Positions 1 through 5,999 of a stretch of 61,138 bases of DNA are shown piece by piece (positions within the stretch are counted from its first letter, which is position 1; each line of letters begins with the position of its first letter). A program made the position numbers and the translations under genes. Source of the stretch: a bacterium. Lineage in GTDB: Bacteria; NPL-UPA2; JAUVJM01. The notes under the pieces were generated by a model, which saw nothing but the letters and a program-made list of their open reading frames with translations, was not told the DNA's origin and did no database searches. The stretch covers positions 1 through 61,138 of the forward strand of contig JAUWGW010000008.1 in NCBI GenBank assembly GCA_030606215.1, read 5' to 3'.

Positions 1-30
1 CTTGCCCTTCTTAATTCTTCCTGTCTCATT

Positions 31-129
31 ATGATAATGTCCTTTCTGTCCATAATGCTCTCCTTTCTGAAGAGCATTATAAACTTCCCAATAGGACATT
101 TCTATTTTGCTACAATAGGACATTATCAT
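31..129. repeat. Cluster of short inverted and direct repeats at left edge
   Basis: A 12-bp inverted repeat (31-42 and 118-129, ATGATAATGTCC and its complement) encloses a 12-bp direct repeat CAATAGGACATT at 89-100 and 113-124. The shared core AGGACATT thus occurs three times in about 95 bp, once in reverse. It lies directly upstream of the promoter-like motif at 165-180, so it could be an operator or a replication/transfer-related repeat of the neighbouring element. Function is inferred only from position. Confidence 0.5.
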
Positions 130-164
130 TTTGGTATGACAGGACTTGATAATGAACTGTAAAA

Positions 165-180
165 CCGAAACATTTAAATA
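165..180 (+). promoter_or_regulatory. Archaeal-style BRE/TATA promoter motif
   Basis: CCGAAACATTTAAATA closely matches the archaeal pattern of a purine/A-rich BRE followed by TTTAAATA. A start about 25 nt downstream would fall near 202, just before the ribosome-binding site AGGAGA (204-209) and the GTG at 223. No good TTGACA/TATAAT pair is evident here, unlike elsewhere in the window. An A/T-rich coincidence is possible. Confidence 0.35.
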
Positions 181-222
181 CTGGCTATGCTTTACTACTT
201 CGCAGGAGAAACAAATCAATAG

Positions 223-849
223 GTGAAATCCAAAATGCCATTCGACTTATCAGATGAACACCGGTACAAGACTTACTACATGGGCATAAACTACAGCCCC
301 AAGCAAGGTATAGTCAGTGACAACTATTTCTGGAACCTAGACAAAGCTTATTTGTTACCGCCAGAAACATTAAATAAGTCCTACATAGATGGTTCTCATT
401 TAGACCAGCGACTTGGAGAATTCTCACCTTCAGAGAATGCGTATCTGAATAAGGATCTTGGTCTTGTGGATAGAATGGCAGCTGAAAAAGTTGCCCTGGC
501 AAAGCTTAGTATCAGCCAATTAGTAAACCAACTACATGAGAGAGAGAAGATAAAGGAATACAATCTTAAGGCTATTGATTATGAATCATGCAGAACCTAT
601 TCAACAATAATACAGATTGATCCATGGTTCCCCCTGGGGTCTCCTTATGATAAGCGTATTGCGAATTTGGAACGTGTTCTTGCTGACCTGGATAAACAAA
701 AGCGGGACGAAACAGGAAAATTCTGGAAAGATACCTCTGATTTGAAAAAAGATGTTGTTGAGGCATTGAAAGAATACAGGTCTGCTGCCAGAACAGGGGA
801 AATCCTGGCTGGTCAATTACCAAGTTACGGTGGTCAGAATGGAAGTTGA
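223..849 (+). CDS. Hypothetical protein, partner of HerA-type ATPase
   Basis: A 208-residue protein of no family I recognise. GTG at 223 is preferred because AGGAGA lies 13 nt upstream; ATG at 234 is 24 nt away. There is no signal peptide or membrane segment. The N-terminal part is aromatic-rich (several Tyr, Trp, Phe), while the C-terminal third (about 130-195) is charged and probably helical or coiled-coil. The gene overlaps the downstream ATPase by 20 nt, so the two are translationally coupled and probably act together. By analogy with HerA operons the small partner could be a substrate adaptor or structural component, but no nuclease motif is visible. Confidence 0.7.
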   Translation: MKSKMPFDLSDEHRYKTYYMGINYSPKQGIVSDNYFWNLDKAYLLPPETLNKSYIDGSHLDQRLGEFSPSENAYLNKDLGLVDRMAAEKVALAKLSISQLVNQLHEREKIKEYNLKAIDYESCRTYSTIIQIDPWFPLGSPYDKRIANLERVLADLDKQKRDETGKFWKDTSDLKKDVVEALKEYRSAARTGEILAGQLPSYGGQNGS

Positions 850-2845
850 GGAACTTTGCAAGAAACTGAAGCCAGTTATAGGCAGAAAAGCAAACGGTCT
901 GTGGCTTGCTTATCTGTCAGCACAGAAATTCAATGAAAAGCAGGAAATAGAAATAGCCCTCAGACTTCTTGCGGCAAAACACCTGAATGAGAATTTCGAC
1001 AACAAGAGAATCCTGTTAACGCCACCACCAAAAGATATGGCTTCCGGAGAATATCCGCTGGGTACAGTGATTTACAACGACAAAGAATTGTACCCGTTTG
1101 GACTGCGAGAATCTGAATGGGTGCAGCATCTTGGTGTTATGGGAAGAAGTGGCGCTGGAAAAACTAATGTTTGCTTTAACATCATCAAGATTCTGCTTGA
1201 ACATAAGAAACCTTTCCTGATATTTGATTGGAAACGTAACTATAGAGATATGCTAACCCTATTCCCTGATCATGATTTCTTGATTTACACAGTCGGAAGA
1301 AATATCTCACCGATACGGTTCAACCCGCTAATCCCGCCGGAAGGAACAGCGCCAGATACCTGGCTGAAGAAACTGATAGAAATCATAGCTACTACGTACT
1401 ATGTCGGTGAAGGTGTTATCAGTCTTCTGACCAGAGCAATTGATGCAGTTTACAAGAAATTCGGTATCTATGACGGGAATCTTGAATGTTATCCCACTAT
1501 GAGAGATGTCCTGAAATGGCTTGAGGATTACCCGGCTAAGGGGAGAGAAGCTCAATGGATGGTATCTACACTGAGAAGTGTTCATGCCCTGTGCTACGGC
1601 GAAATGGGCAGAGTAATCAATGTAGACCAGCAGTTTGGAATAGAGAAATTACTCAAGAAGAATGTCGTGTTGGAACTGGATGCATTAACAAACACGGATA
1701 AGAGCTTTTTAATAGAATCCTTGTTGCTCTGGATCCATCACTACAGATTAGCTGAAGGAAAAAGAGAAGAATTTAAGCATGCCATCATAATAGAAGAAGC
1801 ACATCATATCCTGAGAAGACAGGAACACAGCAAAAACGAGCACATCACAGAGACTATCTTGAGAGAAATCAGAGAGTTAGGAGAGTCAATTGTTATACTT
1901 GATCAGATGCCTTCCTTAATCACTCCACTCGCTCAGGCTAATACCCAGTGTACAATTACTATGAATCTCAAGAATAAATCCTGTGTTGCAACAGCTGCAA
2001 GTTACACTTTATTGGATAGAGATGAAAAAGAATATTTCGGGCAGCTGCCCGTAGGCTATGCTATTGTAAAACTCCAGGATAGATGGTCCAGTCCTTTTCT
2101 CATTAGGCTTCCCCTGATCCCCGTCAGAAAGGGTTCTGTGACAGATGAGATGGTAAAAGAAGCAATGGCAGGGTATTCCCCTAATTCCGGGTCAAAAACG
2201 CCACTGCAAAGCAATCAGCCGTCAGTTCCACCTGTTTCACAGCGTAATGAACTAACTGAAATAGAGAAGGAATTCTTGATACAAGTCTGGAAACATCCAC
2301 TAAACGGAACTGTTCAAAAGTATAAGCGGACAGGGCTAAGTAGAAGAAAAGGAAACTTGCTCAAGCAGAGTTTAATACAAAAAGGATTTATCATATCAAA
2401 ACCTATTTCAACAAGAACTGGAACTTTAATGTTGATGGAGATTACTGGCAAAGGTAGAGAGTTATTAAGAAACTTAGGCTATAAGATAATCTATAATCCC
2501 AACGAAGGTGGGGCTGAACATAGATACTGGGTAAATAAGGTAGCTTCGTGGTATAAGTCAAGGGGATATAGTGTGCAAATTGAGAAAAGGTTAAATAACA
2601 ATGAAGCTTGTGATATTGAGGTCATAGACAGAAAAGGAATGAGATTTGTTGTTGAGGTGCAGACAACAGAACGTAATTTACTGGAGAATATTGATAAGAA
2701 TATTAGGGCTGGCTATAAGAAGATAATAGTATTTGCTACAAATTACAGGGCAATGCAAAGGATAAAAGATATTTTGTTAAAGGAAGGAAACATACCAAAA
2801 GGAATTGAGGTTGAATTGGTGGATTGGAGTGGGGTTGAAATATAG
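830..2845 (+). CDS. HerA/DUF87-type ATPase fused to C-terminal nuclease-like domain
   Basis: 671 residues from GTG at 830 (an ATG at 839 is the alternative start). Residues about 100-430 form a HerA/FtsK-like motor with Walker A GRSGAGKTN (105-113) and Walker B IIIEEAHHIL (about 319-328). A linker follows, then a winged-helix-like stretch (about 480-550). The last 110 residues resemble a PD-(D/E)XK-type domain: GAEHRYW, then CDIEV and FVVEVQT as candidate Asp and Glu-x-Gln active-site strands. Fusions of this kind are, to my knowledge, typical of archaeal and candidate-phylum mobile elements, where the motor pumps or processes DNA. With the half tRNA at 3492-3531 this suggests a conjugative, viral or defence function. 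The catalytic Lys of the nuclease is not obvious. Confidence 0.8.
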   Translation: MVRMEVEELCKKLKPVIGRKANGLWLAYLSAQKFNEKQEIEIALRLLAAKHLNENFDNKRILLTPPPKDMASGEYPLGTVIYNDKELYPFGLRESEWVQHLGVMGRSGAGKTNVCFNIIKILLEHKKPFLIFDWKRNYRDMLTLFPDHDFLIYTVGRNISPIRFNPLIPPEGTAPDTWLKKLIEIIATTYYVGEGVISLLTRAIDAVYKKFGIYDGNLECYPTMRDVLKWLEDYPAKGREAQWMVSTLRSVHALCYGEMGRVINVDQQFGIEKLLKKNVVLELDALTNTDKSFLIESLLLWIHHYRLAEGKREEFKHAIIIEEAHHILRRQEHSKNEHITETILREIRELGESIVILDQMPSLITPLAQANTQCTITMNLKNKSCVATAASYTLLDRDEKEYFGQLPVGYAIVKLQDRWSSPFLIRLPLIPVRKGSVTDEMVKEAMAGYSPNSGSKTPLQSNQPSVPPVSQRNELTEIEKEFLIQVWKHPLNGTVQKYKRTGLSRRKGNLLKQSLIQKGFIISKPISTRTGTLMLMEITGKGRELLRNLGYKIIYNPNEGGAEHRYWVNKVASWYKSRGYSVQIEKRLNNNEACDIEVIDRKGMRFVVEVQTTERNLLENIDKNIRAGYKKIIVFATNYRAMQRIKDILLKEGNIPKGIEVELVDWSGVEI

Positions 2846-2952
2846 TAGGTCGAGTGTGGGAAACTGAACAAAAAAACAGAACACGTCTCACAACTTATCC
2901 AGCACAAAGCTTTTGATACAAGCGTACAACAAGGAATAGCAGCAACCAGCAA

Positions 2953-3129
2953 TTACTCTGAAACAAGAATCTTTTCGGTTGATTGTGTCTTCTCTAAAAA
3001 CTTCAACTTGTTTTTGTAGCCGTTGATGATGCTTTCTGCATACAACTCATAGCTTCTTTCTCTCTGCCTTTCTGAAGTGAAAGGCACAAACTCAACCCTG
3101 ACTTTCCATTCTCGCTTGCCATCTTTCAT
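2953..3129 (-). CDS. Small charged protein, 58 residues, mobile-element associated
   Basis: A short reverse-strand frame begins with ATG at 3129, preceded at 9 nt by GGAGG, one of the best ribosome-binding sites in this region. The product begins MKDGKREWKVRVEF, is rich in Lys, Arg and Glu, and carries the segment SERQRERSYELYAESI, probably helical. It has no membrane segment and no family I know. It sits between the HerA-type gene and the half tRNA, where elements often encode excisionases or small DNA-binding proteins; that role is only a guess. Confidence 0.5.
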   Translation of the reverse strand: MKDGKREWKVRVEFVPFTSERQRERSYELYAESIINGYKNKLKFLEKTQSTEKILVSE

Positions 3130-3291
3130 AGCTTAAAACCTCCCTCTGTGATATATGGACATCAAAACTAGGATGCTTTTTGCAATGCAATCCTGACCCG
3201 ACTTCCAGTTTGGATTGCGTCGTATGATGGGAAAAACTTGCGATTGGAAAACACACTAAAAAAAACACTAGCCAAATCATCTCAAAATTTT

Positions 3292-3335
3292 ATGCATTTC
3301 CGTTCGGCTTTTAATGCATTTCGGTTCGGTTTTCA
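3292..3335. repeat. Two tandem 22-bp repeats
   Basis: Units 3292-3313 and 3314-3335 share ATGCATTTC, GTTCGG and TTTT and differ at only a few positions. They lie about 160 bp inside the half-tRNA boundary, a plausible place for arm-type integrase or excisionase binding sites of the integrated element. No open frame with a recognisable product covers them. Confidence 0.5.
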
Positions 3336-3491
3336 TAAAAACGGGGTTTTCCAAGTTGGAAAGAGATGTAGTAGAGCGTGGAAAGTTTATTTCACGTTTT
3401 GTCGACGGTAAAATAATCTTATACTTGGTGGATAGTTGTTATACTCAGGTGTATTTTTTTATACTCTTGAAATTAGAAAGAGAGAACAGGG

Positions 3492-3531
3492 TTAGGAAAC
3501 CACTGCTCTATCCTGACTGAGCTACGGGCGC
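3492..3531 (-). pseudogene. 5' half of tRNA-Arg(CCT), interrupted in the anticodon loop
   Basis: Read on the reverse strand from 3531: acceptor strand GCGCCCG, TA, D-stem GCTC and GAGC around loop AGTCAGGATA, A26, anticodon-stem strand GTGGT and loop TTCCTAA with anticodon CCT (3496-3494). An intact tRNA would continue ACCAC, but the sequence reads CCCTG and no variable arm, T arm or acceptor 3' strand is found in the rest of the window to its left. The break exactly at the anticodon loop is the signature of integration by a tyrosine recombinase (or of an intron), with the foreign DNA on the low-coordinate side. Confidence 0.8.
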
Positions 3532-3637
3532 TTTTCATCATTTAACCATATTCTTGATACAGATACAAGAAAATTTGACAGAAGAACAAGTTTGCATTGA
3601 GCCGGGAAAAAGCTTAAAATGAAGTGAGGCGATAAAA

Positions 3638-4103
3638 ATGCTTAAGATTGGTACATCCGGTTTCTCTTTCCCTGATTGGAAAAGCACCGTATATCCTACT
3701 AATCTCTCTTCCAGACAAATGCTTCCATATTATGCTTCGGAGCTTGGTTTTGATACTGTAGAGATTAATTCCACCTATTACCGCATACCACAGCCAGAAA
3801 ACATGCTGGCTATGGCAGGGAAGACTCCGGAGAACTTTGAGTTTGTAGTCAAGGGATTTAGAGGGATGACTCATGATCCATTTGATAACCGTCTGGAGAC
3901 TAGACCAACGCACGAAGAGGTTGAGGATTATTTTCACAAATTCAATGAGGCAGTGGAACCACTTAAGAAAGAGGGGAAATTCAGAGAAGAGCTACGCCTT
4001 CTTCAATAATTGCCATGCGGGGAAAGCCGTCCGTAATGCTCAGACTTTGAAGGATAAGTTGGGTCTCAGCATAGTAAGGCCAAAAGGAGACCTCTTCGAA
4101 TGA
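3638..4103 (+). pseudogene. DUF72 family protein with internal deletion and frameshift
   Basis: The first 115 or so residues are a good DUF72 N-terminus (MLKIGTSGFSFPDWKSTVYP, then DTVEINSTYYRIP). After KKEGK near 3980 the frame is lost. The conserved C-terminal motif SYAFFNNCHAGKAVRNAQ resumes in another frame from about 3988 and ends at 4103. DUF72 proteins are usually about 230-250 residues, so roughly 90 central residues are missing. A GAGG ribosome-binding site precedes the ATG. It is adjacent to the half tRNA, and a second DUF72 remnant lies at 25950-26015 on the opposite strand. Confidence 0.8.
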
Positions 4104-4215
4104 AAAAGTCCCCACCACAGAAAATGTTTGACTGGCATAGGACTTTCCACGATAATAATCAGAGAAAGAAATAGGCAGGGTTTTCTATTCAACGGTTATC
4201 ATAGGAGACGATAGA

Positions 4216-5361
4216 ATGAATAAAGTTCTGATTGCAGTATTGGTGGTTCTTCTATTTACAATTCCATCAAGAGCTTTTGAGTTATTCTGTCAGGAAGATA
4301 TTTTAGTTGGTGCTGAGGAGACCATAGGCGAGGACCTTATTGTAATTGGGGATAAAGTTAAAATAAAGGGGAAAATTAAGGGAGATTTTATAGGAATTGG
4401 TAGAAATATACGCTGTGAAGGCGTAATAGAAGATGATGTAACGGTTATCGGGCGTGATATTGACATTAAAGGGGATATCGGCGATGGCATCAGAGCCGCA
4501 GGAGAGAAAATAAAGACAGATGCTCGTATAAAAGGCGATGTCATTATCTTTGGCAAATCAGTAGAATTATTTGAGAACTCCCTCGTTAAAGGAGATGCTG
4601 TTATAGGCGGTGAGGAGATTGAAATAGACGGGAAAATTTTGCAGAATCTGAAAGTCTACGGGAAGAAGGTCAAGATTAGAGGTGAGATAGCTAAAGATGC
4701 TAAACTGAGAGCTGAGAAGATTATACTATTTCCGGGCGCCAGAATAGGCGGAAACCTCAGCTACACCTGCGCAAACAAAATTGAGATAAGAGACGGCGCA
4801 GAGGTAACAGGTGAAACAATCTGGCAAAAACCTGTGACAAAAGCGAAAGGGATTATTGCTCCGAAAAGTTACAGTAAGAAACTTCTCAAAAAGTCCCTGC
4901 TGACACTTCCGGTTTTACTCATCGGGCTTATTCTAATTGGAATTACACCCAAACAAGTCCATATGACAACAGATGTCATTGACAAATTTCCCTGGAAAAG
5001 TTTTGGAGCTGGTTTTGTGTTTCTCGTCTGCATCCCGGTAGCTGCAGCAATACTCTTCGCAACAATCATCGGGATTCCACTTGCTCTGATTACTCTTCTC
5101 ATCTATTTCAGTGCGCTTTATGTAAGTAAACTGTTTGCGGGGATGTCTATCGCAATGAAAATCTTTCACCTGCAAGATAAACCGGGAAGAGGCTCTTTAG
5201 CACTGGCTTTAATAATAGGCTGTGTAATAGTAGTTATTCTCTCCACCATACCTAAAATTGGAGGCTTCATAGGGTTATTACTTATCATGTTTGGATTGGG
5301 CGGCTTTGTGATAAGCAGATGGAAGACTTTTATCCTGGCAAGGGAAAAAGGGTTGATTTAA
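4216..5361 (+). CDS. Bactofilin-like repeat protein with C-terminal membrane domain
   Basis: 381 residues from ATG 4216, with AGGAGA upstream. A signal peptide (1-20, cleavage after SRA) leads into about 190 residues of short beta-helix turns such as GKIKGDFIGIG, GVIEDDVTVIG and ARIKGDVIIFG, the polymer-forming/bactofilin type. Residues about 225-375 contain four hydrophobic segments. It therefore probably displays a beta-helical domain outside the inner membrane and could act as an envelope scaffold; the exact function of this architecture is not known to me. It has no obvious operon partner, and the HigBA promoter follows directly. Confidence 0.75.
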   Translation: MNKVLIAVLVVLLFTIPSRAFELFCQEDILVGAEETIGEDLIVIGDKVKIKGKIKGDFIGIGRNIRCEGVIEDDVTVIGRDIDIKGDIGDGIRAAGEKIKTDARIKGDVIIFGKSVELFENSLVKGDAVIGGEEIEIDGKILQNLKVYGKKVKIRGEIAKDAKLRAEKIILFPGARIGGNLSYTCANKIEIRDGAEVTGETIWQKPVTKAKGIIAPKSYSKKLLKKSLLTLPVLLIGLILIGITPKQVHMTTDVIDKFPWKSFGAGFVFLVCIPVAAAILFATIIGIPLALITLLIYFSALYVSKLFAGMSIAMKIFHLQDKPGRGSLALALIIGCVIVVILSTIPKIGGFIGLLLIMFGLGGFVISRWKTFILAREKGLI

Positions 5362-5403: not shown

Positions 5404-5685
5404 GTGATTAAGTCATTCAAATGTAGTGAGACAGAAAAATTATTTCGGAGAGAGTTTTCGAGCAAGCTTCCGCTTAGCATCCAGCATACGGCAACACGCA
5501 AATTGTGGTTATTAGATGCAGCAACGGATATTGGAGATCTGCGGGTTCCTCCGAGTAATCGTTTGAAAGCATTGAAAGGCAATAGGAAAGGACAACACGG
5601 TATACGCATCAACGAGCAATGGAGGATATGTTTTAAGTGGCATTCTGGACATGCCTATAATGTTGAGATTGTAGATTATCACTGA
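5404..5685 (+). CDS. higB: HigB-type mRNA interferase toxin
   Basis: 93 residues of the RelE/ParE superfamily, HigB (plasmid maintenance killer) branch. Typical motifs are LDAATDIGDLRVPPSNRLKAL, then GQHGIRINEQWRICFKW and a final VEIVDYH. Such proteins cleave mRNA on the ribosome and are neutralised by the HigA antitoxin encoded 14 nt downstream. The start is GTG at 5404; the upstream ATG at 5402 is immediately followed by a stop. Toxin-before-antitoxin order is normal for higBA. The frame is intact and the length is normal. Confidence 0.9.
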   Translation: MIKSFKCSETEKLFRREFSSKLPLSIQHTATRKLWLLDAATDIGDLRVPPSNRLKALKGNRKGQHGIRINEQWRICFKWHSGHAYNVEIVDYH

Positions 5686-5699
5686 GGAGGTGGACATTT

Positions 5700-5999
5700 A
5701 TGAAAAGGAAAATGGAGCCCGTACATCCAGGTGAGATTCTTATAGAGGATTTTCTAAGACCGTTAAGTATTAGTCAGTATCGTCTTGCGAGGGATATCGG
5801 CGTGCCCCCCCGTCGCATAAACGAGATTGTTCATGGCACACGGGCGCTGACTGCTAATACTGCGTTGAGGTTGGCTCGCTATTTTGGAACAACTGCTCAA
5901 TTTTGGCTAAATCTTCAGTCTCACTATGACCTAGAATTAGAGAGAGACCGAGTGGGGCGTCAGCTCGATAGAGAAATCCATACGCTTGCTATAGCTTAA
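5700..5999 (+). CDS. higA: HigA-type antitoxin (XRE family HTH)
   Basis: 99 residues with the canonical HigA opening (PVHPGEILIEDFL) and helix-turn-helix (SQYRLARDIGVPPRRINEIVHGTR), followed by RYFGTTAQFWLNLQSHYDLE. It binds HigB and represses its own promoter, probably at the inverted repeat in 5373-5395. A strong GAGGAGG ribosome-binding site around 5685-5691 supports ATG 5700, giving antitoxin better translation than the leaderless toxin. Start, length and motifs are all normal. Confidence 0.93.
   Translation: MKRKMEPVHPGEILIEDFLRPLSISQYRLARDIGVPPRRINEIVHGTRALTANTALRLARYFGTTAQFWLNLQSHYDLELERDRVGRQLDREIHTLAIA

Follow-up and report, generated by a model that had tools for sequence, protein, structure and literature searches.

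A tRNA-Arg(CCT) 5' half, best read as one end of an anticodon-loop island, next to a HerA-nuclease gene pair in an NPL-UPA2 bacterium

The first 3531 of the 61,138 nucleotides of contig JAUWGW010000008.1 (assembly GCA_030606215.1, GTDB lineage NPL-UPA2; the whole contig is hereafter the window) end in the 5' half of a tRNA-Arg(CCT) gene, beyond whose broken end lie a HerA-type motor gene, a coupled partner gene and the end of an insertion sequence. Judged from the sequence, the best reading of the half tRNA is that an island entered the gene at its anticodon loop and pushed this piece of the host copy aside, and the gene pair is probably an anti-invader module carried by that island as cargo. 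The window is the entire contig C9 of an assembly of 1.52 Mb in 34 contigs that is 92.9% complete; G000 denotes this genome, other G numbers the compared genomes, and L numbers loci in them. The coordinates of all features are collected in Table 1.

Read on the reverse strand, positions 3531 to 3492 give GCGCCCG TA GCTC AGTCAGGATA GAGC A GTGGT TTCCTAA, which covers the gene from the acceptor strand through the D-arm and the anticodon stem to the end of the loop; beyond this point the sequence diverges. The half matched the tRNA-Arg(CCT) of a phylum relative at 39 of 40 bases, whereas 200 mononucleotide shuffles of the window (plus strand of each scanned) never exceeded 25 of 40, and blastn against the G005 gene gave 95% identity over 43 nt (E 2e-14), bearing out the 5' half stopping at the anticodon loop that had been called in an earlier note on this DNA. 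The break falls at the loop TTCCTAA, a known integrase crossover site, as is expected of a tDNA island. The note had also seen no 3' half to the left in the window, and we found none there or elsewhere in the assembly, where a pattern search returned only the Arg(CCG) gene without mismatch. ARAGORN detected no intact tRNA in the window, and the search for another intact copy that the note had suggested revealed no tRNA-Arg(CCT) or (TCT) among the 38 tRNA genes of the whole assembly, which include Arg(GCG) and Arg(CCG). Uninterrupted tRNA-Arg(CCT) genes are present in five of the eight phylum relatives.

The same kind of half recurs in other genomes. When 60 genomes were searched by DNA comparison and 386 by pattern (114 with a match), with halves and intact genes told apart by eye from the matches, ten further tRNA-Arg(CCT) 5' halves emerged, in G004, G009, G013, G046 (two), G050, G095, G304 (two) and G372; this makes 11 halves in 9 genomes with our own. 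The pattern fails where the last position of the junction is T, which includes the junction of the window itself. Three of these genomes, G013, G095 and G372, also have an intact tRNA-Arg(CCT) in the same orientation beyond the half, at a distance of 1364, 4042 and 7186 bp, respectively. The half and the intact gene are identical to TTCCTAA in G095 and G372 and to six bases beyond it in G013, and upstream of the gene the two copies differ in all three genomes. Because the two agree to about TTCCTAA and, in contrast, not upstream, the insert must have carried its own 5' half. These complete layouts, the integrases found beside tRNA genes elsewhere (see below) and the intact gene in five phylum relatives uphold the recombination in the anticodon loop that the earlier note had proposed. 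The 3' half, which the note would have sought to the left, is not to be expected on this side by itself; it should form part of an intact tRNA restored at the opposite end of the island, past the start of the contig. Among the phylum relatives only G004 has a half, broken at the same place as in the window, and a half in relatives without adjacent foreign DNA, which the note had named as a counter-case, was not encountered. In G046 the two halves lie 4.7 kb apart and the roughly 100 bp after each are alike, as in a tandem array.

As a control, a pattern for 3' halves was run on 155 genomes, and five of its 59 matches were 3' halves of tRNA-Arg(CCT), all beginning around TTCCTAA. In this sample, which is not a census, 5' and 3' halves at tRNA-Arg(CCT) are similar in number, against 159 of 3919 islands with a 5' fragment according to the part of the Islander report consulted (PMC4383910); this gene thus looks unusually rich in the rarer type. 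With 11 halves in 9 genomes it looks like a hotspot where these rare 5'-fragment islands are common, and a half tRNA could therefore serve as an inexpensive marker by which to find unknown islands in metagenome bins. Defence-type genes stand beside some of these markers, coding for a SIR2_2 protein in G304 and for a radical-SAM/DUF5131 protein in G046. Two further recurrences were observed by eye at the junctions. In four genomes that belong to different families (G095, G004, G304 and G009; L121, L122, L124 and L129) an adenine phosphoribosyltransferase-like gene has the half downstream of it, and similar small proteins with an EAYIDSGA/EAYIDTGA motif, retropepsin-like in appearance, adjoin the halves at L113:4851-5243 (G046) and L122:5792-6271 (G004).

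Integrase genes were found next to several of these tRNA genes. In G304 a 380-residue PF00589 integrase gene shares about 10 bp with the start of a half, in G050 the stop codon of a 349-residue PF00589 integrase is separated by 11 bp from the intact tRNA-Arg(CCT) that follows, and in G095 a 92-residue remnant precedes the intact gene by about 107 bp. The spacing of 11 bp recurs at L058, which carries the canonical HerA pair, between the stop of a 353-residue integrase and an intact tRNA-Ser(TGA). The inserts of G013 and G372 showed no recognisable integrase. The remnant in G095 is an open reading frame (ORF) at L121:11042-11320 in which a DUF262-like start (by eye) is joined to the C-terminal remnant of the integrase. 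Since the integrase elsewhere stands beside the rebuilt tRNA, the window would show the integrase-free end of the island, and the integrase and the rebuilt tRNA are to be expected past the start of the contig. The arrangement resembles tDNA islands with a 5' fragment, as far as the consulted part of the Islander report describes them (PMC4383910), in that three other genomes show a fragment and a same-direction intact gene at the other end. It also resembles the pTN3-like integrases in the anticodon-loop site and the integrase beside the rebuilt tRNA, both seen in other genomes here; for these integrases the excerpted source states that the integrase promoter drives the rebuilt tRNA, an arrangement 'seldomly encountered in bacteria' (PMC8371274). 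The window differs from both precedents in that its integrase end is unassembled. In the sequence of events that we consider most likely, a tyrosine recombinase would have inserted the island into the anticodon loop of tRNA-Arg(CCT) and displaced the host 5' half to the island end now at 3531-3492. The new 5' half brought by the island would complete the gene at the far end, just behind the integrase gene, where the rebuilt tRNA may be read from the integrase side. A multicopy insertion sequence would have landed in the island and broken the contig.

The insertion sequence occupies the first 142 positions, which leaves some 80 bp to the start of the partner gene and 3.3 kb to the half tRNA, and because the contig starts inside this multicopy element, the contig stops here and the far end of the island is absent. 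Copies of these positions occur at C19:1-141 (identical), C27:34950-35091 (99%) and C13:3628-3756 (81%), and the C13 copy, presumably ISNCY-like, encodes a 428-residue helix-turn-helix transposase with weak LZ_Tnp_IS481 similarity. The other end of the element lies at five contig ends, and its ends were located at eight contig ends altogether (C2, C3, C4, C9, C19, C27, C28 and C30), suggesting that much of the fragmentation of the assembly is due to it. The repeats listed by the earlier note are thus present, but they are two separate things, namely this insertion-sequence end and a 22-nt direct repeat nearer the half. As a guess, the 22-nt repeat could represent integrase arm sites. Arm-type repeats conserved at all junctions were considered and rejected, as among ten regions direct repeats appeared only in the window and, weakly, in L124.

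Some observations weigh against an island. No integrase was found in window positions 1-3531, an intact tRNA-Arg(CCT) is nowhere in the assembled part, and GC content is only slightly lower in 1-3491 (0.397) than in the rest (0.428). A leftward link was not obtained either: the five contigs with the other end of the insertion sequence hold housekeeping genes (trp and xerC-hslUV-like, by eye) and show no island and no tRNA half, and since they continue into these genes, the other part of the island was not found. The PF00589 genes of the own genome comprise those at C9:13418 and C4:8841 (301 and 315 residues), which are Xer-like by size and setting, and a 66-residue fragment at C13:64437. Without an island, the half could be the remains of a tRNA gene that decayed or was rearranged, for example by an insertion-sequence-mediated event, or it could mark the joint of a chimeric contig, the DNA at the break being there by chance. 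This would suit a contig that begins in an insertion sequence, the housekeeping contigs at its other end and the lack of an integrase in 1-3531. However, the break lies exactly at the anticodon loop, like those of the ten further 5' halves and the five 3' halves elsewhere, 3.3 kb separate the half from the insertion sequence, and no HerA relative turned up in any of the eight phylum relatives searched; we therefore regard this explanation as very unlikely.

Group I introns are known in the anticodon loops of bacterial tRNA-Arg(CCU) genes, and this would favour a tRNA interrupted by a spliced intron, whether of group I or of the bulge-helix-bulge type. However, the window gave no Rfam match at gathering score, positions 1-4300 gave no intron family at E<=10, and no 3' exon occurs in the 3.49 kb available or elsewhere in the assembly. 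The Rfam scans and the uninterrupted genes of the relatives led us to reject an intron-spliced gene, which we now find scarcely credible. The case that the earlier note had set against its own reading, a spliced gene with its 3' half nearby, did not occur.

We turn to the genes of the putative island. A HerA/DUF87 motor gene, a coupled partner gene and a 58-residue gene are all present, as the earlier note had described; the partner gene overlaps the motor gene, and the 58-residue gene is on the opposite strand. The motor protein matched DUF87 with an E value of 1.4e-8, and its Walker A region and other motor residues are invariant in 24 aligned sequences. Its AlphaFold2 (AF2) model (predicted local distance difference test, pLDDT, 85.9) was closest in structure to the C-domain of DndH (7es4, Z 33.4, 336 residues, 2.9 Å), followed by VirB4 (4ag5, Z 30.4) and HerA (4d2i, Z 28.5), and the list of fold-library matches (VIA) spans residues 60-449. 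The last 110 residues have no Pfam match. A profile of this C-terminal region built from 16 sequences gave weak best matches to Cas4, AF1548, Hjc, OkrAI and ST1444 (E 0.006-0.84), which we take to be PD-(D/E)XK enzymes, and the same ten-row list also holds flavodoxins and designed or unrelated proteins. Residues E26, D36 and E50 (numbering of alignment A3) are invariant in 16 of 16 aligned C-terminal domains and all are kept in the window copy. The profile matches and this invariant E/D/E support the nuclease-like domain fused to the motor that had been noticed earlier. The model of the partner protein (AF2 pLDDT 72.5) shows a predicted disordered N-terminus and two long antiparallel helices, forming a putative coiled-coil hairpin (residues 81-132 and 141-195); the partner matched no family in Pfam, PADLOC, PHROGs or NCBIfam, and a fold search gave no significant match.

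The pair is conserved well beyond this genome. Relatives of the motor protein, 41-56% identical, were found at 25 loci in GTDB contigs from about a dozen phyla, two archaea included. Their labels are Chloroflexi, Hydrogenedentota, Planctomycetota, Calditrichaeota, Acidobacteriia, Zixiibacteriota, Pontiellaceae, Lentisphaerae, Actinomycetes, Kiloniellales, unnamed bacteria, Nanoarchaeia and Thermococci. The partner adjoins the motor gene in 22 of the 25 loci, and among 22 measured pairs, the window included, 17 overlap, three are 2-8 bp apart, and L061 and L060 are spaced by 46 and 285 bp. In the tree, the near-identical L045, L047, L049, L054 and L059 bear different taxon labels; bin contamination is possible for these labels and for the WY bins. 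The motor protein of the window has no starred neighbour in the tree. No relative was confirmed in IMG/VR, and a viral origin was rejected, with none in IMG/VR and one weak phage match of 25% identity over half of the motor protein; in a plasmid collection, matches reached at most 27.5% over 58%. The literature text searched (main text, without supplements and figures) named no prior description of this two-gene unit. The pair is unnamed in four libraries beyond its HerA-type motor and occurs in both prokaryotic domains, making it a clear candidate for a new anti-invader system or transfer engine.

By analogy, the pair most resembles the 'HerA/FtsK capture' anti-invader systems, described in the consulted section of PMC10853773 as mobile neighbourhoods that join HerA/FtsK, a winged helix-turn-helix, a restriction endonuclease (REase) and Orc/CDC6. 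Shared with these are the HerA/FtsK motor and, in some relatives, Orc/CDC6, and here too the motor is joined in a mobile setting to a predicted winged helix and a putative REase-type domain. The window differs in having one fused protein of HerA, winged helix-turn-helix and nuclease together with a coiled-coil partner, and in that Orc/Cdc6 is usually absent; the HerA/FtsK capture section of that source makes no mention of a coiled-coil partner. The adjacent Orc1/Cdc6 proteins of the relatives, at 344-366 residues, are presumably too short to hold the inserted inactive REase that this section describes (PMC10853773), and no Orc/CDC6 with such an insert was encountered. The DndFGH system offers the closest solved motor fold, the DndH C-domain 7es4, but PADLOC models of DndH are 1567-1715 positions long and the window protein has 671 residues; no DndF or DndG was found in the 3.5 kb in view, where the partner had no PADLOC match at E<=1 and the motor only partial DndH matches. 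HerA-SIR2 and HerA-DUF4297 (Nezha type) likewise combine a HerA-family ring motor with a partner gene, whereas here the partner is a predicted helical hairpin instead of SIR2 or DUF4297 and the nuclease-like domain sits on the C-terminus of the motor. CedD, CedB and VirB4 are also HerA-clade ATPases (NCBIfam CedD scored 66 bits, far under its 600-bit cut-off), but the window protein has an added nuclease-like domain, and no Ced membrane proteins or type IV secretion system parts are in view. For MADS (mad1-8), the three ORFs in the 3.5 kb in view gave no other mad match besides the mad8 one mentioned below.

The nearest motor fold, from the DNA-restriction protein DndH, together with the invariant nuclease residues, the defence-type neighbours and the HerA/FtsK capture precedent, makes an anti-invader role the likeliest. 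The defence-type neighbours come from a PADLOC and Pfam scan of ten hand-chosen neighbour or cargo proteins, five of which belong to such families: two DNA methyltransferases (L043 and L048), an AbiEii/HEC-01-like ATPase (L061) and its partner, and a Schlafen AlbA_2 protein (L051). Two of the ten are HerA-like, among them a 1112-residue protein of the G050 island, and three have no PADLOC match, two of these without a Pfam match either and one, of 1797 residues, with weak Pfam matches. In such a role, the partner and the winged helix may recruit the motor to foreign DNA that is entering the cell or replicating, the ring-type motor, presumably driven by ATP, would pull duplex DNA through, and the fused PD-(D/E)XK-like domain would cut the pumped DNA. 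Several points speak against it. The best nuclease-domain match is weak (E 0.0064), and the second glutamate of the E-x-E that is mostly EIE or EVE in the family is a glutamine in the window copy (EVQ). PADLOC returned no full system, only mad8 (54.7 bits), HerA models and partial DndH, and the choice of the ten scanned proteins was not systematic. In four relatives an Orc1/Cdc6 gene lies downstream, with an integrase after it in two of the four, which also suits a role in element maintenance.

These last loci bear directly on another possibility, that the motor-nuclease pair belongs to the replication, partition or transfer machinery of the element itself, with an Orc1/Cdc6 initiator, HerA as a double-stranded DNA pump and an integrase for insertion. 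Orc1/Cdc6 genes are next downstream of HerA in L060, L065 and G046 (L111) and follow after one small ORF in L041; in L060 and L065 an integrase comes next on the other strand. Also in favour of element machinery, the canonical pair of L058 shares its locus with the tRNA-Ser-adjacent integrase, the 1112-residue HerA relative in the tRNA-Arg(CCT) island of G050 has TrwB and TraG-D_C domains, and several copies occur per genome (L045/L054/L059 and G046). However, most relatives lack Orc1/Cdc6 or an integrase in the DNA compared, the secondary structure of neither model suggests a membrane part (no membrane predictor was run), and the fused nuclease domain and defence-type neighbours suit restriction better, so that we hold element machinery to be possible but doubtful compared with an anti-invader module. 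Less probable still is a broader version, in which the coiled-coil and HerA-winged helix-nuclease pair, with Orc1/Cdc6 and integrase in its fuller forms, is the engine of an unnamed family of integrative elements. If that unlikely case were true, the elements would target the anticodon loops of tRNA genes, bring along a replacement 5' half transcribed from the promoter of the integrase, and spread among many bacterial phyla and archaea with a nuclease-fused HerA ring as DNA pump.

Table 1. Features at the start of the window and the basis of their assignment
Feature	Positions	Strand	Basis
5' end of multicopy insertion sequence; transposase starts at 53 and runs off the contig start (MDRKDIII...)	1..142	-	copies in C19, C27, C13
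Partner protein, 208 residues	223..849	+	homologues upstream of HerA in 22 of 25 loci
Motor-nuclease protein, 671 residues: HerA/DndH-like ATPase, winged helix, PD-(D/E)XK-like domain	830..2845	+	DUF87, alignment, AF2, structural match
ATPase domain, residues 72-432	1043..2125	+	VIA alignment range to 7es4
Predicted winged helix-turn-helix region, residues 477-548	2258..2473	+	predicted secondary structure only, H-H-H-E-E-H order; no Pfam match
PD-(D/E)XK-like nuclease domain, residues 560-663	2507..2818	+	invariant E/D/E, weak profile matches
58-residue ORF, meaning unassigned	2953..3129	-	ORF only
22-nt direct repeat, two adjacent copies, 86% alike	3288..3331		at least 161 bp from half tRNA
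5' half of tRNA-Arg(CCT), putative displaced host half (attL-type junction)	3492..3531	-	alignment, shuffle control, same complete layout in G013, G095, G372
Anticodon loop TTCCTAA, putative crossover region	3492..3498	-	5' and 3' halves elsewhere both meet at TTCCTAA

Among the remaining features, the 58-residue ORF had no match in Pfam, PADLOC or NCBIfam and no tblastn match in the other loci compared. No Orc1/Cdc6 gene was found in the 3.5 kb of the window examined. In the relatives, the Orc1/Cdc6-type genes at L041:4091-5137, L060:8352-9386 and L065:3002-4045 stand on contigs labelled as bacteria, that of L041 scoring just below the TIGR02928 cut-off. Weaker Orc-type ORFs lie elsewhere in L048, L051, L053, L055 and L057, and integrase-like ORFs in L057, L058, L060 and L065. 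Beside the 1112-residue HerA relative of the G050 island, two adjacent small proteins (L127:15233-16274) look RuvC-like by eye.

On the chromosomal side of the half tRNA, a 36-bp stretch upstream of it (3540-3575) recurs at G000:C26:364-399 with 89% identity and is perhaps a shared promoter; pursuing this link to C26 led nowhere. The adjoining DUF72 gene (3638-4103) looks broken, with 123 residues matching the first 80 of 217 profile positions and a stretch resembling the DUF72 C-terminus (by eye) in another frame at 3873-4103. Further along, positions 5404-5999 carry a gene pair for a HigB-like toxin and a helix-turn-helix antitoxin.

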